Origin: Bacillota bacterium
GTDB taxonomy: Bacteria; Bacillota_I; Bacilli_A; Izemoplasmatales; Hujiaoplasmataceae
Assembly (NCBI GenBank): GCA_018818595.1
Contig: JAHIRM010000037.1
Location: 1-64,000 of the forward strand
Length of the DNA: 64,000 bases
Direction: 5' to 3'
Part shown: positions 11,771 to 34,180 of the stretch, one piece after another
Layout: each line of letters starts with the position of its first letter
Numbering within the stretch: the first letter of the stretch is position 1
Program-made: the position numbers and the translations under genes
Notes under the pieces: model-generated
The model's input: the letters and a program-made list of their open reading frames with translations, nothing else
Database searches by the model: none
What the model was told of the DNA's origin: nothing

Positions 11771-14500
11771 CTATTCTGGGTTTGTATAAGAAAGCACTGC
11801 ACTAATTATTACAAATGATCCTGTAACATCAGTGATTCCCGCTTCTCCAAACATAACCATTGAAGTGAAAGAATCAAGTGAAATAACAACGGTTTGTTCT
11901 GCACCTGTAAAAGTAACAGTTTGTTCATTTACGCTGTTATCGTTTGGTTTTAACAGAATGGATTTGTCCACAGTTCCTTGAACTACTAAAGTCATTGTGT
12001 TCATTCCTAAAGCTAAATCTTCATCAAACAAATACTTCATAAATGCCCATTCTTGACCAGCAATTTTTGTATAATTTACAAGAAGTGAATCATCTAATTG
12101 TGGAGTGAATGTATAAGTATCTACATCATTTTCAGCCCAACCATCAATGAAATTAAGTGTATCCATGGTTGAAGTTACCGTACAACTAACGATTTCAAAA
12201 CTTCCAGTTAAACTTCCAATTATTGGATCAACAAATATCAAAATATTAATTGGAGTATCTGTAAGTGTAAAGGTAAACGTTTGATCTTCCCCTGTAAAAG
12301 TAATGGTTTGTTCATACGCTCCGTTATTATTTGGTTTAATAACTAATTGAGCTCCAGCAGTACCATTTACAACGATTACAATTGTATCATGTCTTGATAA
12401 ATTATCTTCAAAGACATAATTAATCGAAGCCCAAGTTTGAATTGAAGTTCTATCATATTCTACTAAAATGGATCCTTCTACATCTGTGAAAGTATAGATT
12501 CCGCCATCTACATCTTCCCAATTATCTCCTAAAACAACATCTACCCAAGGATCAATTGGTGCTGGTTGAATATATGTTAATCTTGCACTAATAATTTCAA
12601 ATGACCCTTTAACAAGACCAATATTAGGTTCAGCAAACATTAAAATTTTTGTAAATTCATCAACTGATGTAATGATAATTGTTTGTTCCTCGCCTGTAAA
12701 GGTAATGTTTTGTTCTAAAGAGTTATTATCGTTTGGTTTAATTAATAATGTTTTTCCAATAGGGCCTTTTAATATAATTGTCATTGTATTAAAATCTTGT
12801 GCTTCTTCTGAAACAAAATCATTTTTCATAAATGCCCAAGCTTGATCTGACCATTTTGTATAATTTACAAGAACGGATCCATCTTCTTGAGTTGTAAAGT
12901 TATAAGTATTAACGTCATTTTCTGCCCAACCAGTTGTAAAATCATAGCAAGGTTCGATGTAAGTTAATTTTGCGCTAATAATTTCAAATGTTCCTGAAAC
13001 TTCAGCTGTGCCAGGTTGTACAAACATAACCATTGAAGTAAATGCTGCTGCTGTAATCACGATTGTTTGTTCTTCGCCTGTAAATACAACGGTTTGTTCT
13101 AAAGCTCCATCATCGTTAGGTTTTAACATAATCGATTCTCCAAGTGTTCCTTTAAGAATAATCGTTAATGTATTTAAACCTAAAATATCTTCTGCCACAA
13201 AATCAGATTTCATGAATGTCCAGCCTTGGTCAACACCTTTTGTATAATCTACTTGAGTTGTTCCACTGCTCAAAATTGTAAAGTCATAAGTGTCAACATC
13301 ATTTTCTACCCATGTTTTTGTAAAATCATAACCCAGTGTAGAGGACGTAACTTTTGCACTAATGATTTCAAAGCTTCCAGTTAAACTTCCAAAAATTGGA
13401 TCAACAAGTATTAAAATGAAAGTTGGAGCATCTGTTAATGTAAAGGTTACTACTTGTTGTTCGCCTGTAAAGGTAATGGTTTGTTCATATGCTCCATTAT
13501 TATTAGGTTTGATAATTAATTGGTCTCCAAGAGTACCTTTAACTACCATTTCTATCATATCATGGTCTGATAAATTATCTAAGAATACCGTTTTAATAAA
13601 TGCCCATGTTTGTTCTGATGTTCTTGTATAATCTACTGTAACAACACCATCAACGGTTGTGAAAGTATAAATTCCGCCATCATTGTCAAGCCAGTTTACA
13701 TTAACATCAACAACGATAGATGCATCAATAGGATCTGGTTCAACGTAGGTTAATCTAGCGCTGATGATTTCAAATGATCCTGATACACTTTCAGTTCCTG
13801 CTTCTGCAAAAATCACCATTGTTGTAAAGGAATAAGCAGAAATAACGATTGTTTGTTCTTCGCCTGTAAAGGTAACAGTTTGTTCTAATCCGCCATCGTT
13901 ATTTGGTTTTAACATAACTGATTTTCCAATAGTACCTTTAAGAATTAAAGTCATTGTGTTAAATCCATCTACGTCTTCAGCTACAAAATCGCTTTTCATA
14001 AATGCCCAAGCTTGGAATGCATCTTTAACGTAATCTACTGTTGTAGTGTTTTCTTCTGTCGTTGTGAATGTATAAGTATCTACATCATTTTCTACCCAGA
14101 CAGTCGTAAAGTCATAATTTGGTTCAATATATGTTAATTTTGCACTAATAATTTCAAAAGTTCCTGATACACTTTCGGTACCTGGTTCAGCACAAATTAA
14201 CATAGTTGTAAAGGATTCTGCGGATATAACGATTGTTTGTTCTTCACCTGTAAATACAACGGTTTGTTCTAAAGCGCCGTTATTGTTTGGTTTCAATAAA
14301 ATTGTTTTATCTACTGTTCCTTTTACAACAAGTGTCATTGTATTTAATCCCAAAACATCTTCTGCTGCAAAATCGTTTCTCATAAATATATATGTTTGTC
14401 CAACGCCTTTTGTGTAAGTTACAAGTGTTGTATCATCAACTGTTGTTGAGAAAGTGTATGAACCAAGGTCAAGTTCTTCCCAACCATCAATAAAATTATA
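11771..14500 (-). repeat. A-A-B-A-A-B-A module array inside the lipoprotein gene
   Basis: Seven similar modules begin near 14500, 14117, 13710, 13330, 12950, 12550 and 12155 and run to the stop, period about 380-405 bp. The modules starting near 13710 and 12550 form a distinct type (IYTFT, DNLS.HD, NNNGAYEQTITFTGE, GSLTGSFEI), so a unit of about 1170 bp (A-A-B) is present twice, followed by one A. Two more divergent modules precede the array. Confidence 0.8.
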
Positions 14501-15565
14501 CACTCCTTCTTCAACGATTTCACCAACGTATACTTTTGAGAAATAAGCTCCTAAGATTTCAAATTCTCCTGTTGCAGTGGTAGATCCACCTTCAGCAAAA
14601 ATTAAAATTTTAGTTAAAGCATCTAGTTGTTCGTTTGTCCATAATGATAAATCTAAACACAAAGTGATTTCTTCATCGATTGCAAAAGAACCAGAAATTT
14701 CTTCTTTAACCGTTGTGCTCAATTCCGCCTTGAGCATTACTGATCCAGCTGTAATGCCCTTAACGGTCAAAACAACATAATCGAAATCAGAAAAATCTCC
14801 TGATACGGTTGATAACATATAAGGCCAATCAAAACCGCCTTTTGTATAAGTGACAACTGGATTGTCTCCAGAATTGTCAATTTCATATACTCCGTCACCA
14901 TTGTCAACAAAACCTAAAGAAAAATCAAATGTTTCTCCAGTTCCATCATAAACTTGTTCGTTTTCAGGAATATTGGAATCTCCATTATCTAAAACGATTC
15001 CAAAAGCTGTTCCTTCATCAAATTCAAATTTTGTCATTGTAAAGTTACCAGTTCCTACTGCTTTTCCAGGAGCTCCGAATAAAACAACTTGTGTAACTCC
15101 GCCTAAAAATACATCGTAATCGCGAAGGTCAAGTTGGTAGGTTACTTCTCCAGCTGTAAGTTGAATGGAAACTTCAAAATTTGAAGTTGCTCCTTCAATT
15201 TTAACCATCAAAGTTCCTTGTCCGCTTACAGTAAAAACTAACTTATTATAAGCTGATAAGTCTTCTTCGGCCATTGAGTTTGTCATACTTGCCCATGAAA
15301 AACCTGCTTTGTCATAGGTAACTGCTAATTGAGTAGCGCTTTGTGTAATTGTATTTACACCATCTGCTCCATCAACCCATCCATCTAAAATACTTAATTT
15401 TAGTGTGGTAGGTACTGTTGTGGTTGTCGTTGTTGTAGTTTCTGTTGTAGTTGTAGTCGTTGTGGTACCTGCTGTAGTTGTTGTGGTAGTAACTTCGTTA
15501 CAAGCCAATAACGCAAAAGCAAAACCAAAAGCAACTAAAAACAATAATCCTTTTTTGAATCTCAT
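11771..15565 (-). CDS. Giant modular surface lipoprotein with nine carbohydrate-binding-like modules
   Basis: 1264 residues. A lipoprotein signal peptide ends in LLAC (lipid-modified Cys22), followed by a Thr-rich linker (about 25-54). The rest is nine beta-rich modules of about 130 residues. Most share a pattern: W..ND..TYTFT, then YTK....WAFMK.DF, LNTMTL..KGT, LKPN....EQTVTFTGEEQT, and a closing GSFEIISAKLTY. The length, repeated surface-exposed aromatic positions and linkage suggest jelly-roll carbohydrate-binding modules, but no family could be assigned. No catalytic domain is visible. It has its own AAAGGAGG site and is last in the carbohydrate locus. Inferred role: capturing polysaccharide at the cell surface. 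Adhesin is an alternative. Confidence 0.85.
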   Translation of the reverse strand: MRFKKGLLFLVAFGFAFALLACNEVTTTTTTAGTTTTTTTTETTTTTTTTVPTTLKLSILDGWVDGADGVNTITQSATQLAVTYDKAGFSWASMTNSMAEEDLSAYNKLVFTVSGQGTLMVKIEGATSNFEVSIQLTAGEVTYQLDLRDYDVFLGGVTQVVLFGAPGKAVGTGNFTMTKFEFDEGTAFGIVLDNGDSNIPENEQVYDGTGETFDFSLGFVDNGDGVYEIDNSGDNPVVTYTKGGFDWPYMLSTVSGDFSDFDYVVLTVKGITAGSVMLKAELSTTVKEEISGSFAIDEEITLCLDLSLWTNEQLDALTKILIFAEGGSTTATGEFEILGAYFSKVYVGEIVEEGVYNFIDGWEELDLGSYTFSTTVDDTTLVTYTKGVGQTYIFMRNDFAAEDVLGLNTMTLVVKGTVDKTILLKPNNNGALEQTVVFTGEEQTIVISAESFTTMLICAEPGTESVSGTFEIISAKLTYIEPNYDFTTVWVENDVDTYTFTTTEENTTTVDYVKDAFQAWAFMKSDFVAEDVDGFNTMTLILKGTIGKSVMLKPNNDGGLEQTVTFTGEEQTIVISAYSFTTMVIFAEAGTESVSGSFEIISARLTYVEPDPIDASIVVDVNVNWLDNDGGIYTFTTVDGVVTVDYTRTSEQTWAFIKTVFLDNLSDHDMIEMVVKGTLGDQLIIKPNNNGAYEQTITFTGEQQVVTFTLTDAPTFILILVDPIFGSLTGSFEIISAKVTSSTLGYDFTKTWVENDVDTYDFTILSSGTTQVDYTKGVDQGWTFMKSDFVAEDILGLNTLTIILKGTLGESIMLKPNDDGALEQTVVFTGEEQTIVITAAAFTSMVMFVQPGTAEVSGTFEIISAKLTYIEPCYDFTTGWAENDVNTYNFTTQEDGSVLVNYTKWSDQAWAFMKNDFVSEEAQDFNTMTIILKGPIGKTLLIKPNDNNSLEQNITFTGEEQTIIITSVDEFTKILMFAEPNIGLVKGSFEIISARLTYIQPAPIDPWVDVVLGDNWEDVDGGIYTFTDVEGSILVEYDRTSIQTWASINYVFEDNLSRHDTIVIVVNGTAGAQLVIKPNNNGAYEQTITFTGEDQTFTFTLTDTPINILIFVDPIIGSLTGSFEIVSCTVTSTMDTLNFIDGWAENDVDTYTFTPQLDDSLLVNYTKIAGQEWAFMKYLFDEDLALGMNTMTLVVQGTVDKSILLKPNDNSVNEQTVTFTGAEQTVVISLDSFTSMVMFGEAGITDVTGSFVIISAVLSYTNPE

Positions 15566-15639: not shown

Positions 15640-17067
15640 CTAAGCTAAGATTGTAAATTCTAATTCCTCAAATCCTTTTTGGACGATTTCGCTTTGCATA
15701 AAGAAATCCCATATTAAATTCGATCGATAATTTTCAATCATTAAAACGGTAATACCTTTATCAATACCAATAACATCTGTTGCAAACCATCCATTTACTG
15801 GAAGTATTCTATTTGGTCTTATAATCGAGGTGCTAGCAGATTCTGTTAATCCGAGATTATAAGCATCTCTAAATCCATATTTTCCTTGAAGGCTTACTAT
15901 AGATGCATAGTTTTCCATAGCTGGAATTACTAAATTAGGAACAAAAGCAATTGATCCTACTGCTCCGCAAGGAGCTAACGTTCCATCGACATAAATCGTT
16001 CCAACCGCAGGTAAATTTCCGTATGCTCGGTACCCATCAGGTCCGTCTGAAGCCGTGTTTCCCCAAGAAAGAGTACTATACGTATCATAGTTTTGCGATT
16101 GCCAAACTCCGTAATCATAAGCTGCGATTGATGCGTTAATCGAGTTTGTAAACCAATTATAATTTTCTTTATCTAATACCGTTCTAAAATCAAAGAAAGC
16201 ATGTGAAAACTGATAAGTGAAAAGTGTTCCTGGATATGATGTATAAAAATAATCCGATGTCCCATATTTTTTTCTAGTAGAACTAGATTTCATCATATCA
16301 TAAGCTTCCTTTCCTACCGAATAATTATCTGAGGCTGCGGCAAGAAAATAAAGCATAAGTTGCTCACTGTACATATCCCAATATCCTTCAAACCCATCTT
16401 CTGGGGTATAGCCCATATAAAACATCATTCGATCTTGGTTGTAATACCAATTCCATTCAATGGCTTGATACAATTCATTTGCAATGGTTTTTATTTCTCC
16501 ACCAAAATATTCTCCTGCCATGATTACACCGCAAATTAATATAGCGGTATCAATAATAGATACTTCAGTTGTTCCAGATCTTAGACCGGTTTCCATGTCT
16601 ACAAAATGGTAATAAAACCCATGGGTTCGTTGCATATTTTCTAAAGTATATAAGGTATGTAAAACTCTTTCGTATCCTTCGCCATAAGAAATCCAATCAT
16701 TCTCGATCCCAAGCGAAATAGCCGCTAGCCCATACCCAACCGATGCAATGGACGCATCTCCAAACGATAACGTATCAACATTGATTCGATCCGCAATTAA
16801 TCCATACCCATCTGACTCAAGATCTCCATTGACTACTTCCCAAAAAAACTTAAAAGATAGTCTTTCTTCTTCCAATACATAATCAGGGACGTCTATTGGA
16901 TTATAAACATATTCCTCAGCCGAAATCGTCGTAGTTGAAGAGGTTGTTTCACTTATTAAAGTCGTCGTAGTTGTGATTGATATGGAAGATGAAGTTACAT
17001 TATCACAAGCAAATAATACGAAAGCTAACAATAGCGTAAAACTAATTAAAAATCCTTTTTTTATCAT
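15640..17067 (-). CDS. Exported lipoprotein glycosidase, glycoamylase-like (PF10091) family
   Basis: 475 residues. Signal peptide with lipobox LFAC (Cys21) and a Ser/Thr-rich linker (about 24-50), then an alpha/alpha-barrel type domain of the glycoamylase-like family. Family features seen: ASVGYGLAAISLG, GFYYHFVDMETG, EVSIIDTAILICG and YSEQLMLYFLAAAS. Relatives include GH144 endo-beta-1,2-glucanases and the corresponding domain of cyclic beta-1,2-glucan synthases; the name glucoamylase is historical. Expected to cut polysaccharide outside the membrane. A cytoplasmic paralogue lies at 32907-34148. Good AGGAGAA ribosome binding site. Confidence 0.85.
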   Translation of the reverse strand: MIKKGFLISFTLLLAFVLFACDNVTSSSISITTTTTLISETTSSTTTISAEEYVYNPIDVPDYVLEEERLSFKFFWEVVNGDLESDGYGLIADRINVDTLSFGDASIASVGYGLAAISLGIENDWISYGEGYERVLHTLYTLENMQRTHGFYYHFVDMETGLRSGTTEVSIIDTAILICGVIMAGEYFGGEIKTIANELYQAIEWNWYYNQDRMMFYMGYTPEDGFEGYWDMYSEQLMLYFLAAASDNYSVGKEAYDMMKSSSTRKKYGTSDYFYTSYPGTLFTYQFSHAFFDFRTVLDKENYNWFTNSINASIAAYDYGVWQSQNYDTYSTLSWGNTASDGPDGYRAYGNLPAVGTIYVDGTLAPCGAVGSIAFVPNLVIPAMENYASIVSLQGKYGFRDAYNLGLTESASTSIIRPNRILPVNGWFATDVIGIDKGITVLMIENYRSNLIWDFFMQSEIVQKGFEELEFTILA

Positions 17068-17078
17068 ATGATATTCTC

Positions 17079-17996
17079 CTATTCTCCTGTAACACCGGTT
17101 CGGTCAATTCCTTCAACGAACCATTTTTGCATAATGAGATATACAATCAAAACAGGGGCAATGATTAAAATGGTTGCACTAAACTTAATAGCCTCATTCA
17201 CCGCAGTTTGACTAATTCCTTCTGCTAACGAAAACTGAGATGAAAAATTAAGTAATTTTAATTGTAACGTGTATAGATTGGGGCCTAAAAATAACGAAGA
17301 CATGTAAGTTTCATTCCAATACCATACAAATGAAAATAAAAATGAAGTGATATAAGCCGGTAGTGCCAAAGGCACACCTATTTTAAAGAAGACTTGATAA
17401 GGATTCGCTCCATCAATCTCAGCTGATTCATCCAAAGCAATGGGTTGCATCCTGAAAAATTGATAAAATATTAATATGAAAATTGCTGAAGATAATCCTT
17501 GCCCAAATGTTGCGGGGAATATAACCGACCAAGCAGTCTCAAGAATTCCTAAACGATCAAACAATAAATATTTTGGAATCATATATACTTGAGTTGGCAC
17601 TAAGTAGGTTATTAATATTAGGATAATAATCACTTTTTTAAACTTCATTTGAAATTTCGCCAACGCGTATCCCGTAATGCTTGTTGTGATTGTTTGAAAA
17701 ATGGCTGGAATCAATGTAACTGATAAACTAAATAGAAGTGTTCTACCATAATTCAAAACAACAAAAGAAGTGCGATAATTTTCTAAATAGATTTTCGTTG
17801 GAATCCACTCAACGATTGGATTCACTAAATCCGCTAAATCTTTAATACTGTAAGTAAACATTTTAATAACTGGATACAAATACACAAACCCAATAATCAT
17901 TAAAATGATGTATAAAATGGTTTTTCCAATTAATCCTTCACTTAAACTTTTTCCTAAAAGAACGCGTTTAATTTTTAGTTTTGTCTTTTTTTGCAT
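17079..17996 (-). CDS. Carbohydrate ABC transporter permease, MalG type (pair 2)
   Basis: 305 residues, six predicted membrane helices. The cytoplasmic EAA loop is seen as ALDESAEIDGANPYQVFFKIGVPLALP, which docks to the ATPase. Overlaps the stop of the upstream permease by one base (TAATG) and has AGGTGAG before its ATG. Forms the second importer pore with 17996-18871. The ATPase is not encoded in this window. Confidence 0.92.
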   Translation of the reverse strand: MQKKTKLKIKRVLLGKSLSEGLIGKTILYIILMIIGFVYLYPVIKMFTYSIKDLADLVNPIVEWIPTKIYLENYRTSFVVLNYGRTLLFSLSVTLIPAIFQTITTSITGYALAKFQMKFKKVIIILILITYLVPTQVYMIPKYLLFDRLGILETAWSVIFPATFGQGLSSAIFILIFYQFFRMQPIALDESAEIDGANPYQVFFKIGVPLALPAYITSFLFSFVWYWNETYMSSLFLGPNLYTLQLKLLNFSSQFSLAEGISQTAVNEAIKFSATILIIAPVLIVYLIMQKWFVEGIDRTGVTGE

Positions 17997-18871
17997 TATC
18001 TTCTCACCTTATCTTTCGAGAACGCACCAAGTACAAGTGCTGCAATTCCTAAAATAATAGCAAGCGCAAGAAAATACACCCAAGCAATTGCTGATGAAAA
18101 ACCAAATCCATTTAAAAACATGTTATTTTTAATGTGACCAATCGCCTCATTTTCAGAGAATGTCGCAAGATTAATAATGGTGAAAACGACAGATACCATT
18201 ACCATGCTTTTCAGAGATGGCATGGTAATCTTCCAAAAAGATTCCCAAGGTCCGGCCCCGTCAATCATTGCGGCTTCATAAGTGGCTCTATCAATTTTTT
18301 GAAGTGCTGCAATAAACAATAATATTTGAACTCCAGAAAACCATAAGATAACGATTAATTCAGAGAAAATGTTTGCGATAGGTCTTGCCAAACTTTCAGT
18401 AAAAGTTTCATTAATTAAATTAATAATCCCCATCTGTTCTACCAAAGGAATTGTTGCGGCTCCTTGATTTACTAATTGGTTAATTACTGGACCAGAAGCA
18501 ATAATGACTGGTAGAAAATATATTCCTCTAAAGAGTCCTCTTAATTTCATTTTTTGATTTAACATAACTGCAATGATAATAGCGAACACAGTGATAATTG
18601 GAACTTTAAATAAAATTTCAATCGCAAAGTCACTAACCGATTGTAAGAAACTAAAGCCTTCAGCTGAAGTAAAAATCCTTCGATAGTTTTCAAAGCCATT
18701 TAAAGTCGCTTGGATTCCTTCTGGGTCTAACGTAACCGTTGCAAAACTGTAATAAAATGATATTAATATTGGATACAAAGTAAACACTAAAAATCCGATA
18801 ACCCATATGGAAAGAAAAGACCAACCCACTAAATTTTGACGAAGATTTCGATTCATTGGTTTTTTAGTCAT
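17996..18871 (-). CDS. Carbohydrate ABC transporter permease, MalF type (pair 2)
   Basis: 291 residues, six predicted helices beginning LVGWSFLSIWVIGFLVFTLYP. The EAA loop reads ATYEAAMIDGAGPWESFWKITMPSL. The ATG overlaps the end of the DUF5696-like gene by 8 bp and has an AAGGTGG site inside it, so translation is coupled. Confidence 0.92.
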   Translation of the reverse strand: MTKKPMNRNLRQNLVGWSFLSIWVIGFLVFTLYPILISFYYSFATVTLDPEGIQATLNGFENYRRIFTSAEGFSFLQSVSDFAIEILFKVPIITVFAIIIAVMLNQKMKLRGLFRGIYFLPVIIASGPVINQLVNQGAATIPLVEQMGIINLINETFTESLARPIANIFSELIVILWFSGVQILLFIAALQKIDRATYEAAMIDGAGPWESFWKITMPSLKSMVMVSVVFTIINLATFSENEAIGHIKNNMFLNGFGFSSAIAWVYFLALAIILGIAALVLGAFSKDKVRR

Positions 18872-21155
18872 TAGATGTCACCACCTTATAACTTAAGGGT
18901 TCAATCGTAGTTAAATTAAATGTTTGTTGCATATTCGTATAGTTTATGTAAATCGATACTCCATTATCATAAACTACTTGATATACACCAACATCTAAAT
19001 AATTTCTTTGTAAAACCGATGCATTTACCACGTCTTTTAAAGCAAGGTTAATAAAATCATACTGAGAAATTATTTCACTTTTCCAAGTAGAAAAACTAGA
19101 TGAATATATTTGTTGAAGTTCTGTATCTTGTAACAAGTAAGAAGATTCTTGAGTCAAAATATAAGAAGGATACAAATGGTAATCAATCATCTTAAGTAAC
19201 TCAAATCTTTGATTCGTAATAAAATTTTGGAAAGGTGCATAAGCTTCTAAAATTCCACTTAACACATAAGAAACAAATGGAACACTGTCGCTATAAATCC
19301 GATACTTATTTGAAGTCGTTGGCGTAATTAAGTAAGCATTTGAATACTTCAATAAATATAGAAATGGTTGATAAAATACCGATTCAATATCTGCTTCTTC
19401 TAACATGTTTAGATAGATTGCCATTGCTTCGTTACGATCTATTTCGTTGTTTTCATCTTTATAATCTGAATAAATGGTATGACCTATCGTTCCGATGGCA
19501 AAATAATTTAATTCTTTTTCTTTTAAAATTCGAACAGATTCTATAAATGCGCTAGCAACTCTTGTAGGAGATACATAATAATAAGATTTTGTGAACCCAT
19601 CTAATTTTAATAAGTTTTGATTGATTTTTTGTGTGATATCTCGATAGGTACTAAAACTTGCGTTTTCATATACCTTCATGGTGTCCAAATAGAAATATAA
19701 TTCAATTTGATCTGTTTCATAATTTTCAACCAAATCCAGAAATTCTTGTTTTGTCCCTAAATGAGAATCAAGATTTTTATAGACTAATCCCGAGCTAGTA
19801 AATCCACCATCAGAGAAACCTTTATAGACTACCTTTATAGAATTGACACTTAAAGAAAGTTCATCGAGTATTGCCTCTAAATCTGAAACGTCAGTTAATA
19901 CTATCGTTTCGTCAAAAATAAATCCGGCTTTATCTTCAGAACCTAAGACTTCTAAAAAGATACCAACTTCATCTGTTTCATTTATTTTTTGTGTCATTAA
20001 AGATTCTTCTAACAAGTAAGTTTGATAAACCTTTGCCATTCCAACGTAATTTGCTTCTTCATCAGCAAGAAAACGGTATTTCAGCGCAACATTACAAGAA
20101 TTAATGTCTTCTTGAATTACTTGTCTTCCAGAACCAGAAAGAGCTTGAGATTCAGAAGTTGGAGCTTGGTATAATCTGCGATATAAAAACTCATTGTAAG
20201 AATAGTAATATTTAAGATTATTTTTTGCTGGACTCACAACTAAATTTGCAAATAATGCTCCGTCCTCCACAATCGCAATAAACCCATGTTGGTTTATTCC
20301 TTGAATCATACCAGATACAGGAAATGCAAGATTTGGTTCGAATTCCAAACTAGTCGAAATAGCTTCATCTGTTCCATAATAACGAAATTCATAAATATCA
20401 GTTATCGTATCAATAGGTTGGTATCGAATTAATGCACCCGATCCATCAGGAACAAAAATATATCCCGGAATAGAGTCTCCATAAACGGATCCTAAGAATG
20501 GATAAGTTTTAATGCTTCTTAATTTGAAGGTATCTCCTTCTGATATTGAATCGTTTGGAACTTCAACTCTTAGATATTCTCCTTCAATAAAAACTCTTAA
20601 AGTTAAACCTATGCCAGATTCTCCGAATAAGATGTCCACTTCAAATCCATTTTCGATGAGAGTATAACTTGTTGTTGTTAGATTACTTTTTAATATACTT
20701 TCTTCTAAACTGGTATACACTCCAGAAGTATCGCTGTATGAATAATATTTAATCGTTACTGCAGAATTAACGATGCCTTCCCAAGTTGTATTAAAGTTTT
20801 CTAAGTTATCATCTTTTGTTGATAATGAGGAACCATAAATAAAATTATCTGCCTTATTCAAAATTCGAATGGCATAACTCTCTTCTTCAAAGTATAAAGC
20901 TAAGCTATCTGTTTCACCCACTAAAATATAGGTATTAGGAATGGTTAAGAAATTATTTACGACAGCTAGGTCATCTGCTTGAGTAAATTGATTTGAAGAA
21001 AGAAATGTCTCATCTAATAATGTTTCGGTTTCGGGAAGAGAATCACTTTCTATAGTTGATGGACTCATTTTTGCTAAAAGAGGAATACATAAAAACACAA
21101 GAGGTATAATCAACACTAATAAAATTAATTTCTTTAAAATTTTATTTGAATACAC
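18864..21155 (-). CDS. DUF5696-like membrane-anchored exported protein
   Basis: 763 residues from a GTG at 21155-21153, chosen because AAGGAGGTG lies 7-8 bases ahead. An N-terminal helix (about 8-27) anchors it, with the remainder outside. The middle holds segments like GYIFVPDGSGALIRY, which I associate with DUF5696 proteins found beside sugar importers in Firmicutes; the C-terminal half has alternating strand/helix character that could be a barrel fold. Function is unknown; an accessory binding or glycoside-processing component of the importer is inferred. Overlaps the end of the YIP1 gene by 14 bp. Confidence 0.65.
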   Translation of the reverse strand: MYSNKILKKLILLVLIIPLVFLCIPLLAKMSPSTIESDSLPETETLLDETFLSSNQFTQADDLAVVNNFLTIPNTYILVGETDSLALYFEEESYAIRILNKADNFIYGSSLSTKDDNLENFNTTWEGIVNSAVTIKYYSYSDTSGVYTSLEESILKSNLTTTSYTLIENGFEVDILFGESGIGLTLRVFIEGEYLRVEVPNDSISEGDTFKLRSIKTYPFLGSVYGDSIPGYIFVPDGSGALIRYQPIDTITDIYEFRYYGTDEAISTSLEFEPNLAFPVSGMIQGINQHGFIAIVEDGALFANLVVSPAKNNLKYYYSYNEFLYRRLYQAPTSESQALSGSGRQVIQEDINSCNVALKYRFLADEEANYVGMAKVYQTYLLEESLMTQKINETDEVGIFLEVLGSEDKAGFIFDETIVLTDVSDLEAILDELSLSVNSIKVVYKGFSDGGFTSSGLVYKNLDSHLGTKQEFLDLVENYETDQIELYFYLDTMKVYENASFSTYRDITQKINQNLLKLDGFTKSYYYVSPTRVASAFIESVRILKEKELNYFAIGTIGHTIYSDYKDENNEIDRNEAMAIYLNMLEEADIESVFYQPFLYLLKYSNAYLITPTTSNKYRIYSDSVPFVSYVLSGILEAYAPFQNFITNQRFELLKMIDYHLYPSYILTQESSYLLQDTELQQIYSSSFSTWKSEIISQYDFINLALKDVVNASVLQRNYLDVGVYQVVYDNGVSIYINYTNMQQTFNLTTIEPLSYKVVTSND

Positions 21156-23178
21156 GGAAGAACACCTCCTTAGTCCAAGACGAAATAAAGTCCCAAAGTT
21201 GAGAACCAAACACGTAAATGATAAATAAAATTAAAATGATAATAAACATGGTAAAAATAGTCAGTAAAAGATTTTTTATTGTTTCTTTAATTTCGTAATT
21301 GTGAATTTCTTTGATTCCTAAAAATACCAAGACTAACGTATAAATAATAATAAAATATAGAAATAAATCGTATAAGACAGATTCATTAAGAGTTAAGATG
21401 TTTGATAAAATGATAAGTGGAATAATTCCTAACAATAAGGGACTTAACGCATATACGCTTGCAATGAAGACATCCTTAAGCCATCCTTCTCCATCCGACA
21501 AAGTAGCAATTAAATAATTTGAAAAGATGAACAATCCAATCACACCAAAAAACTTGATTGCTTCAAAGAAAAGATTAATATTATCAGCATAATGATTAAA
21601 GACAAATCCAGTAAATTTAAGTAAACATAAATACTCAATAAACAAGACAAGTAATATAATTACGCTAGTTAAAACATCTGATCGTTTTTTTCTTTTTATT
21701 TCATAATAAGCATCAATTGGGTGTTTTGTTACATAGAAAATCAAGGTAAATTTCCTGACAGACGGAAGACTAAAAAATCTCTTTGATTGGTGATTTACTG
21801 TTGCAAACACTTGAGTTTTTTTATTAACAACTTTTACAATTTGAAAAACAAAAATGAATCCAAGTATTAAACTAAAAACAAGGCTTAAATTATCCTTTAG
21901 CCAGATGTCTCTAATTTTCCAATAGGTTTCTGTATAGCCTGGCAAATCATTTGCAAGAAGATATTCTTCTAATGCTTTATCAAAAAGCTCGTCTTGATAA
22001 TACGCTTTTCCAAGAGCACTATGAGCCAACGCAAAATTATTGTTTTGATCTAAGATTGATTCAAAGAGCAAGGTGCTTTCTAAATACTTTCCTTGATTAT
22101 ACATATCAATGGCTTCATGAACCAAAGTTGCAAAACTGGAAGGTTGATAAACGACAACTTCATTTTTTCCCATATCAAGTACAAATAGATTATTGTAATC
22201 ATCTATTTGAATGGCAGATGGGCTTTGAATTAATCCCAAAACATTTGAGTTGGATTTCATTACATCAAACGCAAACAATAGGTTCCCTGAAGGATCGTAT
22301 TCTACAATCAATCCATCATCATAAATACCATAAAGATATCCTTCAGTATTTACCGTTAAATCCACAACATTTTGTTCAACATTATAATTGGAAGCGGTTA
22401 AAATATCGTTCCCATTCACATCTAGTTTCTTTAATGCATACATCGTATTTGGTGTAGAAGTATAAACCAGCGACTTGGGATTAATCGCAATATTTGTAGG
22501 AGAAGGTGGCATATTTCTTGCATATTCTCCTGGTAAAACAAATAGATCTGCAATCCGTTCGATAACGGATTTGTTTGAAAGATTAACTCCAAAATAGCCT
22601 AAAAAGGATCCATCATAATTTAATTGAATGACTCCACTTGTTGACCCATCCCCAATTACGTAAATGTTTTCTCCACTTCCGACTACTACTTTAATCGGAA
22701 CATAAGGCGATCCACTTCCGAATAACGGTTCCGTTGGTCGTCCAAATGTTCTTATCAAGGTTCCATCTAAATCAAACTTATATACTAATTGATTTCCCTT
22801 GTCTGCAACATAAAGATAGTCTTCGAGAGATACATGAATTCCGGTAGGTTGGTTTAAAACATCTGCACCAATTTCCAAGATTACATTTCCTGAATAATCA
22901 AGCACAACAACACGATGATTTCCCGTATCAGCAATATAAACAAGGTCGTCTTTTACGTATAGATCTTCAGGATTTAACAACACAACATCACGGTTTAAGA
23001 CACCAACTGGTGTATAAGCAGTTTGTGTGAACGTTAAATTACCTTCATAATCTACTGTAAACGTATCATAAGGATATTCGTTTTCATAAAATACTGTATC
23101 AGCTAAAACAAAGCTAGAAGGGATGAATAGAAAACAAAGAAGCATAAGGTTAATGACAATAAGAATTTTTTTCATCAT
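21142..23178 (-). CDS. NHL-repeat / TPR / YIP1 membrane protein
   Basis: 678 residues with an unusual layout. A cleavable signal peptide (FVLA-DT, about 1-26) is followed by an NHL-type beta-propeller (about 45-340; repeats such as YIADTGNHRVVVLDYSG and YVADKGNQLVYKFDLDG), a short TPR pair (about 350-415), a membrane helix (about 430-452) and a YIP1-like domain with about five helices (about 490-665). The propeller and TPR would lie outside. No enzymatic residues recognised. Its position between two permease pairs suggests a structural or sensing partner of the importer; this is inference. Confidence 0.75.
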   Translation of the reverse strand: MMKKILIVINLMLLCFLFIPSSFVLADTVFYENEYPYDTFTVDYEGNLTFTQTAYTPVGVLNRDVVLLNPEDLYVKDDLVYIADTGNHRVVVLDYSGNVILEIGADVLNQPTGIHVSLEDYLYVADKGNQLVYKFDLDGTLIRTFGRPTEPLFGSGSPYVPIKVVVGSGENIYVIGDGSTSGVIQLNYDGSFLGYFGVNLSNKSVIERIADLFVLPGEYARNMPPSPTNIAINPKSLVYTSTPNTMYALKKLDVNGNDILTASNYNVEQNVVDLTVNTEGYLYGIYDDGLIVEYDPSGNLLFAFDVMKSNSNVLGLIQSPSAIQIDDYNNLFVLDMGKNEVVVYQPSSFATLVHEAIDMYNQGKYLESTLLFESILDQNNNFALAHSALGKAYYQDELFDKALEEYLLANDLPGYTETYWKIRDIWLKDNLSLVFSLILGFIFVFQIVKVVNKKTQVFATVNHQSKRFFSLPSVRKFTLIFYVTKHPIDAYYEIKRKKRSDVLTSVIILLVLFIEYLCLLKFTGFVFNHYADNINLFFEAIKFFGVIGLFIFSNYLIATLSDGEGWLKDVFIASVYALSPLLLGIIPLIILSNILTLNESVLYDLFLYFIIIYTLVLVFLGIKEIHNYEIKETIKNLLLTIFTMFIIILILFIIYVFGSQLWDFISSWTKEVFFRVFK

Positions 23179-23183
23179 ATCAC

Positions 23184-24062
23184 CTACTTGATTCCTGAAT
23201 GTGCCATTGTATCCATCACTTTAGATTGCATTAAAATAAAGATAATGAGATTTGGCAAAAACATAATAAGTGACGCAGCAGCTGCCATCCCTTGACCCGC
23301 AACTCCATTCGAATTCGCAGTTAATGTGTTCATGTAAAAAGCAAATGTTTTTAAAACATCATTGTTTATATAAGTAGTTGATGTATCCGCAGAATTCCAA
23401 ACGGTTTGAAACGATAAAATAACAATCGTGGCAATGGCAGGTTTTATCAAAGGTAAAATAATTTTATGATAAATTTGCCACTCTGTAGCTCCATCGATTC
23501 TAGAAGCATCAATCAATTCATTTGGTATCTGATCAATGAATTGTTTCACCAAAAATAAACCAACTGGAACTGCTAAGTATGGAAGAACATGTACAAAAAA
23601 GTTATCTATTAAACCAAGTTTTTCAATAATTAAATACCTAGGAATCATAACAGCGATTCCTACAAACATTAACGCAATTGTATTGATTTCGTTAATGGTT
23701 TTTTTCATCTTAAAATTCAATTTAGATAAAGCGTATCCTGCCATGGTTGAAATCAAAACGGATGCAAACAAGACTAATCCCGTGACAATAATACTGTTGA
23801 ATAAATACCTACTCATTGGAATTCCTGAAGATCCGGTTACTTGAAATAAACTAACAAAGTTTCCTAAGGTTGGTTGTTCCACAAAAAATCTTGGAGGATA
23901 ATAAAACAATTCTTCTAATGGTTTAAAAGCATGGTTAAAGATATAGACTAGAGGAAGTAACATAAATAATGCTATTGGCATAATAATTAAAATATAACGT
24001 ATTTGGCTCTTATGGAATCTCTTCGGATTGATTTTAGTTCCTTGGAATTTTTGTTTTCTCAT
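23184..24062 (-). CDS. Carbohydrate ABC transporter permease, MalG type (pair 1)
   Basis: 292 residues, six predicted helices, EAA loop [23 protein letters not shown]. Start overlaps the upstream permease stop by ATGA. Pairs with 24059-25000. Confidence 0.92.
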
Positions 24063-25000
24063 TCGTCTTTACTTCCAAACAGTTTAAAAGCAAATCGACT
24101 AAACAAATAAACAATCAATAATAAAATCACCGAAAGAGCTGCCGCATATCCCATTTCATATTTATAAAAACCATAATATTCAATGTGATTTACGATTAAT
24201 TGCCCTGCATATTGTGGTGTCGGATTCGAGCCAGAAAGCGCCACCCCTATTCCTGAAGCAGAAAAGGTTCCAACAATTGCCATGACTGCCCCAAATAACA
24301 TTTGAGGTTTTATTGAAGGAATGGTAATATAAATCATTTCTTGAAACTTATTCTTAATACCGTCAATATATCCCGCTTCATAAAGTTCTTGGTTCACATT
24401 TAAGATACCTGCAAGCATTGCTAAAAATCCAACTCCCATTGAACTCCAAAGCGTTACAACAATCATAATTGTTAATAAGAAATCCTGAGACTGAAGCCAA
24501 ATAATCGGTTCAACAATAATTCCTAAATTGAGCAAAACACTATTTAGATATCCGGTATTATCTCCCGCAAAAATGACTCGCCATAAAACGCCCATCGTAA
24601 CTCCCGATGTCAAAGAAGGTGAGTATATAATCAAAGCTAAAACCGTTCTAATTCTTGGAGCGAGTTGAGCTAACATCCAAGCAAGCAAAAAAGATAAAAT
24701 ATAGCCGCCAGGCCCAACAATAATAGCGTATTTGAGCGTGTTAGGAATGACATATTGCATAAACACATCATCATTCGTCAAAATGTTGATGTAGTTTCCA
24801 AAGCCAATCAAGATTGGAGCTCTTACCGTATCAAAATAGGTAAACGATAAATAAATAGCAGCAATGACTGGAATGACTATGAAGATTGAAAACATAATTA
24901 AATAAGGAGAAACAAATAAATAAGCAATCGTATGTTGATCTTTTAATCCTCTTGATTTTTTCGCTTTCAAGCGATAAAGTAGACTATTCAGAAGAATCAC
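24059..25000 (-). CDS. Carbohydrate ABC transporter permease, MalF type (pair 1)
   Basis: About 310 residues, six predicted helices starting [20 protein letters not shown] loop [24 protein letters not shown]. The start is unclear: GTG at 25000-24998 overlaps the upstream gene by 17 bp and sits almost on top of the GGGAAG site, while a CTG three codons in has better spacing. Belongs with the MalG-type subunit immediately downstream. Confidence 0.88.
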
Positions 25001-27932
25001 TTCCCGTCAAAGAAAGCCACTCTTCAATTTGAGAAAGAGACGCCTTTTCATAAGCCATTATAATATTTCCATATTTATCTACGTATCCAAATTCAGACAT
25101 TTTTTTCATGATTTCTTTATTCATTTTAATAATGCCATCATTTAAACCAACTCTTAAATTTTCTCGATTTATGACCACGCTATTCCATAAATTGGATATT
25201 TCAAGTTCCACTTGATAAGAGCCGGGAACCTTTGGTAATTCTTTTAAATAAGTCCATTGCTCCAAAACGATAGCTAAATCATCAGCGTTCATGTTTAAAG
25301 TTTGAAACGCTTCAACATTGGCGCTGTTCCATAGGTACTCTTTTCCTAAAGTAGATAAGAGTAAAGAAGAAAAAGTGGATTGAGTATCTGTCGAAGACCA
25401 CCATTTCAAAAATTCCCATGATTCGTTTAGTTTATCGGTGTTTTTAAAAATCATATTTGCCGTTTGCGCACCTGTTGCACTGCGATCAATCGTTGAGTCT
25501 TCTTGTTCTATTCCTGGAAGCAAAGCTATTTTCCAAAGTCCTTGGATGTCTGGTGCTGCATTTAGTAATGTTGTATACATTCCAAAGTCACCTACACCAA
25601 TAGGACAAAGTCCAAGACGAAAATCATTATAAAAACTTGAAACAGTCACGTCAACACTATAAATGGTATAAAGCTCTGTCATCATTTCTAAAGCATTTAC
25701 CGTTTCTTCGTTATCAAGTGACACAGTAAAAGAATCTTCCGAATAAATAGAGGATCCATATTGAAATAAGAAAGGAAGAGTTGCATCAAATGATTTTAAA
25801 GATGTTGCGCTGGAAAGAGGTAGATAAAAATTCATTCCATATCGTTTTAATATAGGCATCATTTCTGTAACATCGTCCCAAGTAGATGGAACTTCAAGAT
25901 TTAACGCACTTAAGATATCGGTTCTATAAAATAATACATAGAAATTTTCTGTATCTGGTAATCCATATAATCCAGAATCATACATTAAAGGAATTAAAGA
26001 TTCTGCTTGATAGTACCCTATAACTGTTGCAAAATCTTCATCATCAATAAAGGCAGTTAAATCTTGAATGGCTCCTCTAATCCCTAAATCATAAGGCAAC
26101 CAAGATGCAACACCTAATGCGACATCTGGATTTGTTTTCGCTGAATTCGCGAGAATTAATTTTCCTTCTGCTGCCATCACCGATACTTTTACTTTAATAG
26201 AAGTATCTACTGTGAATGTGTCATCAATCATTTTTTGAATCAAATCTACGTATTGTTTCGGTCGATTAATCCAAACTTCTAATTCATCTTCGGCGATATC
26301 GCTCGAAAATCGTTGATCAAAAAATGAAATAAAGAATCGTTGTATGTTTACCCACACTCTAACAAAGAAATTGGAATTCGCCTTGGGCAGATCAAACGAT
26401 GTATGTACATAAAACTTATCCATATCAAGTGAACTATTTAGAATTAAAGAAATTGTATTTCCAAGGGTAGCAGCCACCGAAGAGGATGATGTCGAAAGCA
26501 AAGAAAGATTCTTAGGAATGTCATTTGGATTATCCGCAAGATATCTTAAATTCCGAATGGCTATTTTTATACTTGATTCAGCCTCTGATAGTTTATTTGT
26601 CTTTGATAATTGTGCTAAATAACTTTGGTAGTACTCTAATACATTTGCAATTTCATTTAAATCAGAAACGATTGTTGGTAAAAATTCGGTTATTTCCCAA
26701 TCTCTATCTTCATCGATTTGATTTCCGGTTAATTTTTTGATGCTTAATGTTAATTGATTCACATATTTTAAAATATCCTGAATTTCGAAGTATGCCTCCA
26801 TATAAGGACTTAAATTAACCGATAAAGATACTTCATTTACCCCTTCTTCAAAATATATAAGATAAGGAGCATCTTGCCCTACTGTATAATTTTGCCAAGA
26901 ATTATCGTATTCAATTGGCAAAGAGTAGGCTTCTTCAAAAGGAACTTCTCCATTGATTCTAAGTGTCCTATAAACAACTCCATTTACCATAGAAGACTGT
27001 AGCACTTTAAATGTTAAATAATAGTATCCTGCCTGTTCGACCACAACTTCATAAGTAACAGATTCTCTTTCTGAATTAAATGTCGCCCCAGAAAGCATAT
27101 TTAATTTTAAATATCGAACTGAAAAAGGAGTCACATAAACGCTTCTAGAAATTCCTGCTTGAATACTTGAAGAATTTTTAATCTTAGGAAGTTCTGCTTC
27201 AACTTCTTCGAAAAATTCGCTTGTAGAAACAATTCCTCCATTAATATATTCTTCATAGGAAACAGATTGTTCTTTTCCCGAAACAAATACATCCCCCACT
27301 AAAAAATCGCCTTTGATTCGTTCAAACGTAATTTCATTTTCTCCTTCTTCTAATAAAAAGAGTAATGGCTGTGAAAAGAGTCCCATAGGGTCAAAAAAGT
27401 CTTGACGAATCCAACTACTTACTTGCAAGATGTTTCCATAAAAGTCATTTCCATATCGATCAATTGAAAATTCTTGACTTTCATTTTCCCAAAGTTTATA
27501 TAAAATAATTTGTGAAGCTTCGGTATATTGAATTTCTCCATTCACATAAATCATCATTTCTAAATCCAAGTAATCCTCAGATAAAGAATAAAAATCCAAA
27601 GCAAATTGATAGAGGCCTTTAGAATCAGTTGAAACCGTAAAGTTAATTTTCGTCTCATCAATCCATTCATATACTGGTGATGTATAATCAAAACTATTTT
27701 CAATACTAGTAAGAGCTAACCCCGAAAAGTCAGATGGAAGGATTGTAGAAGTGAAATTGGAGTTGTCTAAAAATTCTTCATTTTCCCATGAAGAAAGCAT
27801 TTCTTTGTAATTACCAGTCAGCAAAAGACTTGTATCTGTGTCTTCAATTACTGTATCTGCAAATACTAAATGCATCGATAGATTGACAATCCCCATGAAA
27901 AGGAAAAGGACTAGAATGAAACTTTTCCTCAC
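24984..27932 (-). CDS. Large exported protein: two N-terminal beta modules fused to a sugar-binding domain
   Basis: 982 residues from GTG at 27932-27930, preceded by GAGGTGG. Signal peptide ends VFA-DT, so unlike the neighbouring 482-residue protein it is not a lipoprotein. Two sugar-binding-like beta modules (about 55-215 and 250-385) precede a helical linker (about 390-480) and a family 1 solute-binding domain (about 540-965; [49 protein letters not shown]). About twice the usual size of a sugar-binding protein. Next to permease pair 1, which it probably serves. How it stays at the cell surface is unclear. Confidence 0.8.
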
Positions 27933-27968
27933 AACTTCCACCTCGCTTTCTAAAGTCACTTTATTTCT

Positions 27969-29417
27969 TTATTCAGTTACACCAAGTTTTTGAAATACTG
28001 CCGCTCTTGCGATACTTAAAGCATCATTTGCAATTTCATTCCAAGAAGTTTTAACGTCTGCATAATTAACGGTACCTGCACGCACTTTATCAAATAATTG
28101 TCCTAAAGTCGTTTCTGCATCGTATACTTCGGTCCATCTTGCTTTTATGTATCCCGGAACGTATTTATTTGGTTCGAGAATATAATTGTCATATTCTACT
28201 ACTTTTCGAAGTTCTGTAAAACTAGAATAGATTGCAAAGAAAGCATCAAGTAATTCTTCATCCGGTTGTAAAGGAGTCATATTTAATGCAGCAATATCTA
28301 GTTCTTCATCAGTTGAGAATGCTATTCTTTGTAAATATCCATCTTTTCCAAATGACATCCATTTAGAAAGTAAATACGCTTCTGTCAAATGTTGAGTTTG
28401 AGAAGAAATACACATCAAATCTAAAACAATAGGTATTTGATGAGCGTCATCTGTACCAGGAGTACCAATGAAATCAACTTCAAAATCGTAATCAAGCATA
28501 GATCCTATAATAGGTGTATATTCCCAGTATGCTGCAAGTTGACTAGATTCCCAAGCATTTGTTGTTCCAAAAGCTGCTAATTGTTCTTCTGGCGTCATAG
28601 CATCATATACAAATGTTTTATCTTGCATCAACGTTTGATAAAGCGTAAGCGTTGTTTCAAATTCAATTCCATCTAAATGTAGTAAAGTTCCATCATATGT
28701 ATACCATCCTAATTCGGAATTTAATTGAGCTGGATACCATTCTAACATTCTATCAAGTCCAACAATACCTGCAATTCCAGTTCCATTTGTTACATTATGA
28801 TTGGCAACATCTTTGATTTTATCTACAAATTCAGAAAATGTGTCTTCAAATAAAGGTGCATCTGCATTTTCATTTTCAAAGATTGTCTTATTTATGTAAT
28901 ATCCAAAATAGTAGACTGCGTAAGGCAATGCCATCAATTTTCCACCATAATTAGCGGCTTCTCTGATGTCTTCTGAAATGTTCATAAATTCAGGATCATT
29001 GTGAGCAATTTCAGTGACATCTTTTGCCCAGTTATTCATAATAGTTGTTTCAGTTGAATCGGTAAAAAATACATCAGGAAGAGATCCTTGTGCGGCTCTC
29101 GCACCTAAAAACTCATTCCAATTTTGATCAATTTCTGATGTTCCTGTTGAATCTGGAACTTTTGGTCTTTCAATAATTTCTACAGTAATCCATGGATATT
29201 CTTCCATAAATGCATCAATCATAAGTCGCTCTAAATTAACTGATTCTACTGTTCCTAAATTCCATGCTGCATACGTAATTGTAACTGGAGTATTAGAAGT
29301 TGTAGTTTCGGAAGTATCAGATCCACTTGTTGTCGTAGTGGTTGTTGTCAATTCAGTACATGCAAACAGACTAAAACTAAATACAATTACTAAGATAAAC
29401 CCTACTATTTTTTTCAT
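27969..29417 (-). CDS. Sugar ABC transporter solute-binding lipoprotein
   Basis: 482 residues. Lipobox LFAC (Cys20) and Thr/Ser-rich linker (about 22-48) followed by a family 1 extracellular binding domain (VTITYAAWNLGTVESVN; LPDVFFTDSTETTIMNNWAKDVT; AYLLSKWMSFGKDG). Captures oligosaccharide for one or both of the permease pairs. Follows the GH94 gene by 17 bp, which contain only the GGAGA ribosome binding site, so the two are cotranscribed. Confidence 0.9.
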   Translation of the reverse strand: MKKIVGFILVIVFSFSLFACTELTTTTTTTSGSDTSETTTSNTPVTITYAAWNLGTVESVNLERLMIDAFMEEYPWITVEIIERPKVPDSTGTSEIDQNWNEFLGARAAQGSLPDVFFTDSTETTIMNNWAKDVTEIAHNDPEFMNISEDIREAANYGGKLMALPYAVYYFGYYINKTIFENENADAPLFEDTFSEFVDKIKDVANHNVTNGTGIAGIVGLDRMLEWYPAQLNSELGWYTYDGTLLHLDGIEFETTLTLYQTLMQDKTFVYDAMTPEEQLAAFGTTNAWESSQLAAYWEYTPIIGSMLDYDFEVDFIGTPGTDDAHQIPIVLDLMCISSQTQHLTEAYLLSKWMSFGKDGYLQRIAFSTDEELDIAALNMTPLQPDEELLDAFFAIYSSFTELRKVVEYDNYILEPNKYVPGYIKARWTEVYDAETTLGQLFDKVRAGTVNYADVKTSWNEIANDALSIARAAVFQKLGVTE

Positions 29418-32905: not shown

Positions 32906-32906
32906 T

Positions 32907-34148: not shown

Positions 34149-34180
34149 ATTTTCCTCCAACGCTTTAATATTTTATTGTT

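Follow-up and report, generated by a model that had tools for sequence, protein, structure and literature searches.

What does a protein that joins an exported NHL propeller to a membrane-embedded YIP1 domain do in a sugar-import operon? Its gene (21142–23178; 678 aa, ATG start) lies in a 64,000-nucleotide stretch of DNA, here called the window (positions 1–64,000, forward strand, of contig JAHIRM010000037.1, assembly GCA_018818595.1; Bacillota bacterium, Izemoplasmatales, Hujiaoplasmataceae), and, like all features described below, is encoded on the minus strand. The original prediction, which had placed a signal peptide, NHL repeats and a YIP1 domain in one 678-residue chain, agreed with the ORF, Pfam, AlphaFold2, Foldseek and hydropathy analyses. 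The signal peptide comprises residues 1–27 (23098–23178; hydrophobic stretch 5–23, cleavage after VLA judged by eye), the six-bladed NHL propeller residues 55–346 (22141–23016; PF01436, E 9.4e-10, above the curated cut-off) and the YIP1 domain, with five transmembrane helices (TMs), residues 483–651 (21226–21732; PF04893, E 7.3e-12, 45.9 bits versus a cut-off of 28.6). Both families were matched in 15/15 homologues, and searches of Pfam and NCBIfam for a better family at either end returned none for the C-terminal helices or the N-terminal repeats. In the AlphaFold2 model (mean pLDDT 78.9, pTM 0.60), six β-sheet blades at ∼55–346 are followed by paired helices (348–409), a TM helix within 412–454 and five more TM helices. 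The closest folds to the propeller, which dominated the matches because the whole model was the Foldseek query, are the NHL propellers of TRIM71, Thin, Brat and PknD (target-normalised TM-scores ∼0.73–0.80). The predicted TPR pair fared less clearly: in the window protein, TPR models matched below the Pfam cut-off only, but TPR_2 was found at E ≤ 0.01 in 10 of the 15 homologues (best 1.6e-6) and helical hairpins were modelled. Based on the model, conservation and the homologue matches, residues 347–428 (21895–22140) are described here as two TPR-like hairpins plus a linking helix, a region that includes the invariant R423.

The first TM helix (residues 429–451; 21826–21894), assigned from the model and hydropathy, would run from outside to inside. 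Hydropathy placed the TMs at 433–451, 502–520, 534–552, 572–590, 604–622 and 638–656, in addition to the signal peptide, and the loop at 449–501 holds 13 K/R versus 3 D/E. This excess predicts that the NHL-TPR part is outside and the N-terminus of YIP1 inside, and together with the signal peptide it supports the extracellular propeller that had been proposed. Across 76 homologues, G182, D335, R423, P487, G563, E599 and E671 are invariant, a degree of conservation that excludes chance. An enzymatic role of the NHL part as lyase or lactonase was considered and rejected, as the matches to SGL, PAL and Vgb were weak and at the level of the fold, with no enzyme-specific set of conserved residues.

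The sugar-import setting held: the operon also encodes BPD_transp_1 permeases, a solute-binding protein (SBP) and glycosidases. What did not hold is the view of the combination as an oddity of this operon, since it lies, without exception, at the middle of a seven-gene block shared by distant Bacillota lineages. The order (SBP fusion, permeases A1 and A2, NHL-TPR-YIP1, DUF5696, permeases B1 and B2) fits 78/78 loci examined, with a median intergenic gap of −4 nt inside the block; 68/78 were scored complete, and the remaining 10 have an extra SBP, carry permB1 fused to permB2 (L051-L053), lie at contig ends or, in one case, contain a wrongly called ORF. The NHL-YIP1 gene adjoins permease A2 in all 78 loci. 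Co-occurrence of NHL-YIP1 and DUF5696 in 392 sampled genomes was 48/0/1/343 (Fisher p 4e-61, uncorrected for species relatedness), and the sole exception is one DUF5696 fragment. In a reverse test, one Lachnospiraceae genome (G439) was searched by DUF5696 alone, and 12/12 of its full-length DUF5696 genes were located in the same block, with one NHL-YIP1 gene per cassette even at this number. Almost all Yip1 domains above the Pfam cut-off in relatives of the window sit in the seven-gene block, and the block is conserved across branches of the DUF5696 tree exceeding one substitution per site. The block's central component, the NHL-YIP1 protein, is never missing from it. No paper on the block was found among CC-licensed PMC papers.

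At 30 loci, NHL-TPR-TM and YIP1 are encoded by two adjacent genes instead of one, the separate YIP1 genes having 3–5 (mostly five) predicted TMs. The state changes at least three (three to four) times on the DUF5696 tree; such repeated fusion and fission is the usual sign of physical partners.

The block has the features of a CUT1 ABC importer: EAA-type permeases, an SBP and a MalK-type ATPase. The permeases, assigned by Pfam and block order, are A2 (23184–24062), A1 (24059–25000), B1 (17996–18871) and B2 (17079–17996), and most members of all four families carry EAA-type coupling loops (loose pattern). The ATPase gene is absent from the window operon and lies beside the second cassette of the genome; in Paenibacillus, ugpC is found just upstream of the block. 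The secreted SBP fusion (SBP991, 24984–27959; 991 aa, no lipobox) consists of an N-terminal β-rich and helical region and a Lin1841-like SBP, and lies beside a free lipoprotein SBP (SBP482, 27969–29417) that is optional and not in every block. With a loose pattern, a lipobox was found in 9/67 SBP fusions versus 28/32 free SBPs, so most fusions must be retained in some other way, partly by an uncleaved helix at the N-terminus. Exploratory mirror-tree analysis gave partial correlations of 0.51 (A1-A2), 0.42 (SBP-A1) and 0.29 (B1-B2) for known pairs, and of 0.29 (NHL-DUF5696), 0.26 (NHL-B1), 0.25 (YIP1-SBP N-part) and 0.19 (YIP1-A2) for new ones, small signals that may stem from uneven rates or alignment quality.

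The DUF5696 protein (18864–21209; Pfam, model and alignment), which has an N-terminal signal/TM anchor, probably starts, judging from its homologues, at the GTG at 21155, giving a 14-nt overlap with the NHL-YIP1 gene. The best Foldseek matches of its model are GH129 and GH101 (E 1e-25 to 1e-12, ∼10–13% identity), and a profile search of PDB sequences retrieved no relatives. In an alignment of 75 members, read without active-site superposition, position 676 alone is acidic throughout (a mixture of D and E) and no conserved acid pair was found in the barrel. A catalytic DUF5696 was therefore set aside, and the protein is judged to be probably non-catalytic despite its GH129/GH101-like predicted fold. 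Its pairing with permease pair B is weakly suggested.

The cargo of the operon points to a substrate. Around the block are genes for a GH94 phosphorylase (29435–31822), whose closest solved relatives are the phosphorylase part of cyclic β-1,2-glucan synthase; a relative of GH144 endo-β-1,2-glucanase with signal peptide and lipobox (15640–17067); a LacI-family regulator (31946–32923; Pfam); a second PF10091 (GH144-like) protein (32907–34160); and a GH3 β-glucosidase (34181–36304). The closest PDB relative of the SBP part of SBP991 is Lin1841 (β-1,2-oligoglucan). Judging from GH94, the GH144-like protein, the Lin1841-like SBP and GH3, the window block probably imports β-1,2-glucan oligosaccharides; the GH144 enzyme would produce them outside the cell, and GH94 and GH3 would degrade them after uptake. 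Some cassettes adjoin genes that do not look glycan-related, such as the LLM flavin-dependent oxidoreductases in Paenibacillus cellulosilyticus; this counts against the glycan importer proposed below.

Domains, fixed order, co-occurrence, fusion and fission, and predicted topology are best reconciled, in our judgement with somewhat better than even confidence, if NHL-YIP1 is a core structural subunit, for assembly and docking, of a composite glycan importer of the CUT1 ABC type that uses two pairs of permeases. The physical complex, the docking roles, the shared ATPase and the substrate are the inferred parts of this reading. The importer would be encoded by a single block, with translational coupling, that comprises A1/A2, B1/B2, the secreted SBP fusion, DUF5696 and NHL-YIP1. 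The YIP1 domain, in the membrane beside the permeases, might drive or stabilize their assembly, by analogy with YknW and YknXYZ, whereas the external propeller and TPR hairpins would dock the SBP fusion and DUF5696. Pair A would be fed by the SBP fusion, and DUF5696, GH129-like and anchored in the membrane, would serve pair B as a glycan holder, not an enzyme; the single MalK-type ATPase beside the second cassette probably powers both pairs. Against this stand the facts that genes of one operon can serve a common pathway although their products never touch, and that the N-terminal helix of many fusion SBPs could anchor them without docking.

A regulatory role, in which the propeller binds an extracellular glycan and YIP1 signals to the permeases or the ATPase, appears unlikely. 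The propeller is outside, conserved YIP1 residues (P487, G563, G565, H626 and Y628) are predicted to face the cytoplasm, and in Mycobacterium PknD an NHL propeller serves as extracellular sensor (fold match 1rwl). However, the block includes no output domain such as a kinase or a regulator, the operon already has its LacI regulator, and NHL-YIP1 is never missing, whereas regulation is usually dispensable. Still less probable is that the propeller itself captures sugar for pair B, as a binding protein or lectin. With SBP482 optional and SBP991 tracking permease A1, pair B is left without an obvious binding protein, and the NHL-B1 correlation fits; but DUF5696, with its GH129-like predicted fold, is the better candidate for the pair B receptor, and conservation within the NHL part is highest at the repeat's own blade Asp and Gly. 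A chaperone role has been suggested for Yip1 proteins in the context of membrane proteins (PMC6682643), and NHL-YIP1, as the permanent neighbour of DUF5696, could aid folding or surface delivery of DUF5696 and the SBP fusion, outside the working importer. This we regard as very unlikely: it is an equally rigid neighbour of permease A2, and a chaperone could be shared among cassettes instead of being encoded once in each of 12. Mere hitch-hiking under common regulation is close to refuted, for although unrelated genes can stay together in operons for some time, order and completeness were kept over 78 loci and such long branches, with 48/0 co-occurrence with DUF5696.

Yip1 proteins are common in prokaryotes, and most of them lack an assigned function (PMC6682643). 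The block ties the domain to glycan import in a large co-inherited set, with natural fused and split versions, and so provides bacterial YIP1 domains with a testable role. Should the block form a single complex, it would represent a new ABC importer architecture and a marker for Bacillota glycan-use loci, including those of gut Lachnospiraceae and uncultured Izemoplasmatales, and would provide roles for DUF5696. A wider proposal, which we rate at somewhat less than even, is that of an undescribed class of Bacillota importers with two permease pairs in one supercomplex around an NHL-TPR-YIP1 hub. The pseudo-glycosidase DUF5696 would be their dedicated receptor, and the importers, with as many as a dozen copies in one genome, would be a functional counterpart of SusCD.

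Like CUT1 importers (MalFGK2-E, Lin1841-type), the block combines BPD_transp_1 pairs carrying EAA-type loops with a family-1 SBP and a MalK-type ATPase; unlike them, it has two permease pairs per cassette, a long N-terminal region fused to the SBP, NHL-YIP1 and DUF5696. DUF5696 shares its predicted fold with GH129 and GH101 but lacks a conserved barrel acid pair and has a membrane anchor. With TRIM71, Thin, Brat and PknD, the propeller shares the six-bladed fold and the Pfam NHL repeat, but here it is exported and joined to TPR hairpins and, in the membrane, to YIP1; the RNA binding that the animal proteins perform in the cytoplasm has no bearing on it. Like SusCD of Bacteroidota, the block serves as a marker core that gathers changing glycosidases, and a single genome can hold many of these cores (12 in G439); this is an analogy only, the block consisting of ABC permeases in a single membrane without an outer-membrane TonB channel. 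For YIP1, no function has been reported for prokaryotic members (PMC6682643), and Yip1 genes adjoin ABC genes in bacteriocin clusters. The part that eukaryotic YIPF proteins play in Rab-linked Golgi trafficking has no meaning in a bacterium, and the eukaryotic trafficking analogy drawn originally is less useful than a bacterial precedent: YknW, a Yip1 protein needed beside the Bacillus ABC exporter YknXYZ, is reported to modulate assembly of that exporter via an interface with both YknX, its external partner, and YknYZ, the transporter itself (PMC4887032). Both are Yip1 proteins encoded with an ABC transporter (here in 78/78 loci), but YknW belongs to a MacB-like exporter with the membrane fusion protein YknX, whereas YIP1 here goes with two CUT1 importer permease pairs and has its NHL-TPR ectodomain either in the same chain or encoded by the neighbouring gene. 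As its partners in the block are BPD_transp_1 permeases and an SBP, not YknX and YknYZ, the protein is not a member of the YknWXYZ system, but it may act in a YknW-like way.

The ORF of 678 residues on the minus strand at 21142-23178, which the original prediction had described as an NHL propeller and a TPR pair fused to a YIP1 membrane domain, proved to be real. Two of these domains were borne out in the window protein by Pfam matches above the cut-off (NHL, E 9.4e-10; Yip1, E 7.3e-12, residues 483-651), and both were present in 15/15 homologues; the TPR match stayed below the cut-off, with TPR_2 found at E<=0.01 in 10 of the 15. The predicted structure (mean pLDDT 78.9, pTM 0.60) consisted of a six-bladed propeller, which was matched by solved NHL domains in the fold comparison, two helical hairpins at the place of the TPRs, a transmembrane helix (TM1), and a five-helix membrane domain. 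Hydropathy and charge agreed with the earlier placement of the propeller outside the cell; together they predict that propeller and TPR part are external and that the YIP1 domain starts inside. The residues invariant in 76/76 fused or joined sequences include R423, immediately external to TM1, as well as E599 and E671, for which an outward-facing position in the YIP1 domain is predicted; a contact between the NHL-TPR-TM1 half (R423) and the YIP1 half (E599, E671) is a guess. In loci L013-L016 (Izemoplasma HR2 and relatives), an insert of ~105 residues separated blades 2 and 3 of the protein, and both B-pair permeases (B1, B2) were extended at the N-terminus.

The first homologue set, taken from public genomes, had identical neighbours at every locus, and profiles made with it were used to label ORFs in the loci. 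Added were 40 homologues from the sample of the window's own phylum (20-kb regions each; half fused, half split), 20 regions from Lachnospiraceae-phylum genomes, and two named plasmid records. The order SBP fusion (a 991-aa solute-binding protein), permease A1, permease A2, NHL-TPR(-YIP1), (YIP1), DUF5696, permease B1, permease B2 was found in 78/78 loci, always on one strand, with intergenic gaps of −4 nt (median) and of <=60 nt in 99%. The combination initially called unusual in a sugar-import operon is present, in one chain or as two adjacent genes, in every locus with this gene order. Blocks were complete in 68 of the 78; of the other ten, five were truncated at contig ends, L011 had a wrong ORF call, L051-L053 had B1 and B2 merged in a single ORF, and L060 showed an additional SBP match downstream. 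The flanking genes, among them glycosidases, regulators and additional SBPs, varied. The window's genome itself contained a second, diverged copy (32% identity) in unchanged order, and G439, the Lachnospiraceae genome of L012, contained at least 12 complete cassettes of the fused and split kinds (L062-L073), with different neighbours each time.

Because most loci had been picked via the NHL-YIP1 protein, they cannot reveal the remainder of the block without it; therefore, DUF5696 alone was used for retrieval in one Lachnospiraceae genome, where NHL-YIP1 (fused or split) lay immediately upstream of 12/12 full-length DUF5696 genes. Among 392 genomes, 48 had both proteins, 343 neither, none NHL-YIP1 without DUF5696, and one (G037) DUF5696 alone, as a fragment only; a weak generic NHL match (G408) and partial low-score DUF5696 matches were omitted from this count, and its Fisher p-value takes no account of species relatedness. 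Copy numbers are minimum values, because scoring in the large samples covered only the top three candidates of each genome. Of the 299 genomes sampled around the Lachnospiraceae one, about 27 had a cassette-type protein, the remaining matches being ordinary NHL proteins. In 41 relatives of the window's genome, Yip1 domains above the cut-off were nearly all within the NHL-YIP1 protein or its split form, with G018:C1:1577911 as the clear exception.

The two-gene form, seen in 30 loci and usually with genes overlapping by a few bases, comprises an NHL-TPR protein, in which the first transmembrane helix is retained, and a YIP1 protein of its own, ~205-270 residues long; this form was checked with Pfam, and the annotation of Butyrivibrio fibrisolvens shows it as well. 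On the DUF5696 tree (75 rows, quick tree), the state required four changes, at least three of them forced by well-supported branches. Repeated fusion or fission of neighbouring genes is a standard indicator of physical partnership. Mirror-tree analysis of 67 loci recovered the expected pairs (A1-A2, SBP-A1, B1-B2). It also linked NHL to DUF5696 and to B1, and YIP1 to A2 and to the N-terminal region of the SBP. By these pairings, the NHL-YIP1 protein would lie between halves A and B, which, the values being small, is a lead only.

BPD_transp_1 was present in 4/4 permeases and an EAA-type loop (loose pattern) in most members of each family, so that both pairs should, judged by these motifs, engage an ATPase. 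A B1/B2 heterodimer is supported by L051-L053, three loci of three lineages in which both are merged in a single ORF (617-636 aa). The clear MalK-type ATPase gene (contig C8 of the window's genome, 95.6-96.7 kb; 3600-4733 in L017) adjoins not the window's cassette but the second one, ~2 kb downstream, and may serve both; a weaker OB_MalK match lies on C5. The block of Paenibacillus cellulosilyticus has ugpC as its immediate upstream neighbour. A lipobox (loose pattern) was found in 9/67 SBP fusions versus 28/32 free SBPs; many fusions have an N-terminal hydrophobic helix, which might be retained as an anchor. The DUF5696 model (mean pLDDT only 65.7) had GH129 and GH101 as top fold matches, and the alignment of 75 members contained no conserved acid pair in the barrel; DUF5696 is therefore read as a putative glycan-binding relative rather than an enzyme.

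The nearest PDB relative of the fusion's C-terminal solute-binding domain is Lin1841, a Listeria protein binding beta-1,2-oligoglucans. Together with a GH144-like extracellular enzyme, a GH94 enzyme that most resembles the phosphorylase portion of cyclic beta-1,2-glucan synthase, GH3 and a LacI regulator, this points to beta-1,2-glucan as the window's substrate. The block is not bound to one substrate, because other enzymes accompany it at other loci. In L060, on a P. cellulosilyticus plasmid, its neighbours are not glycosidases but several LLM flavin-dependent oxidoreductases, along with additional SBPs, and the cargo there may not be an ordinary glycan. For a separate lipoprotein SBP in the window (27969-29417), the PDB match that clearly stood out as the best was the 22hh-22hl set (E 6e-60), which bears only the name "Extracellular solute-binding protein family 1". 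A GH13 alpha-amylase family enzyme (36338-37957, minus strand) lies upstream of the beta-1,2-glucan genes, and is also found near the cassettes of L013-L016. A 1264-aa lipoprotein (11771-15565, minus strand), with a Thr-rich linker and at least six repeats of a beta-rich module of ~130 residues, is perhaps a surface glycan-binding array; its length class is conserved at the operon end in the close relatives L003 and L004.

A full-text search of open-licence papers found none describing the block or DUF5696. According to a 2019 review, prokaryotic Yip1 proteins were without reported function (PMC6682643), although work on YknW, the Yip1 protein of the Bacillus exporter YknWXYZ, dates from 2012. 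YknW is reported to modulate the assembly of YknXYZ (PMC4887032), and it is this bacterial precedent that decides between the readings of the role of the NHL-YIP1 protein: by analogy, its YIP1 domain would assemble the importer within the membrane, and its exported NHL-TPR region would keep the external partners in place.
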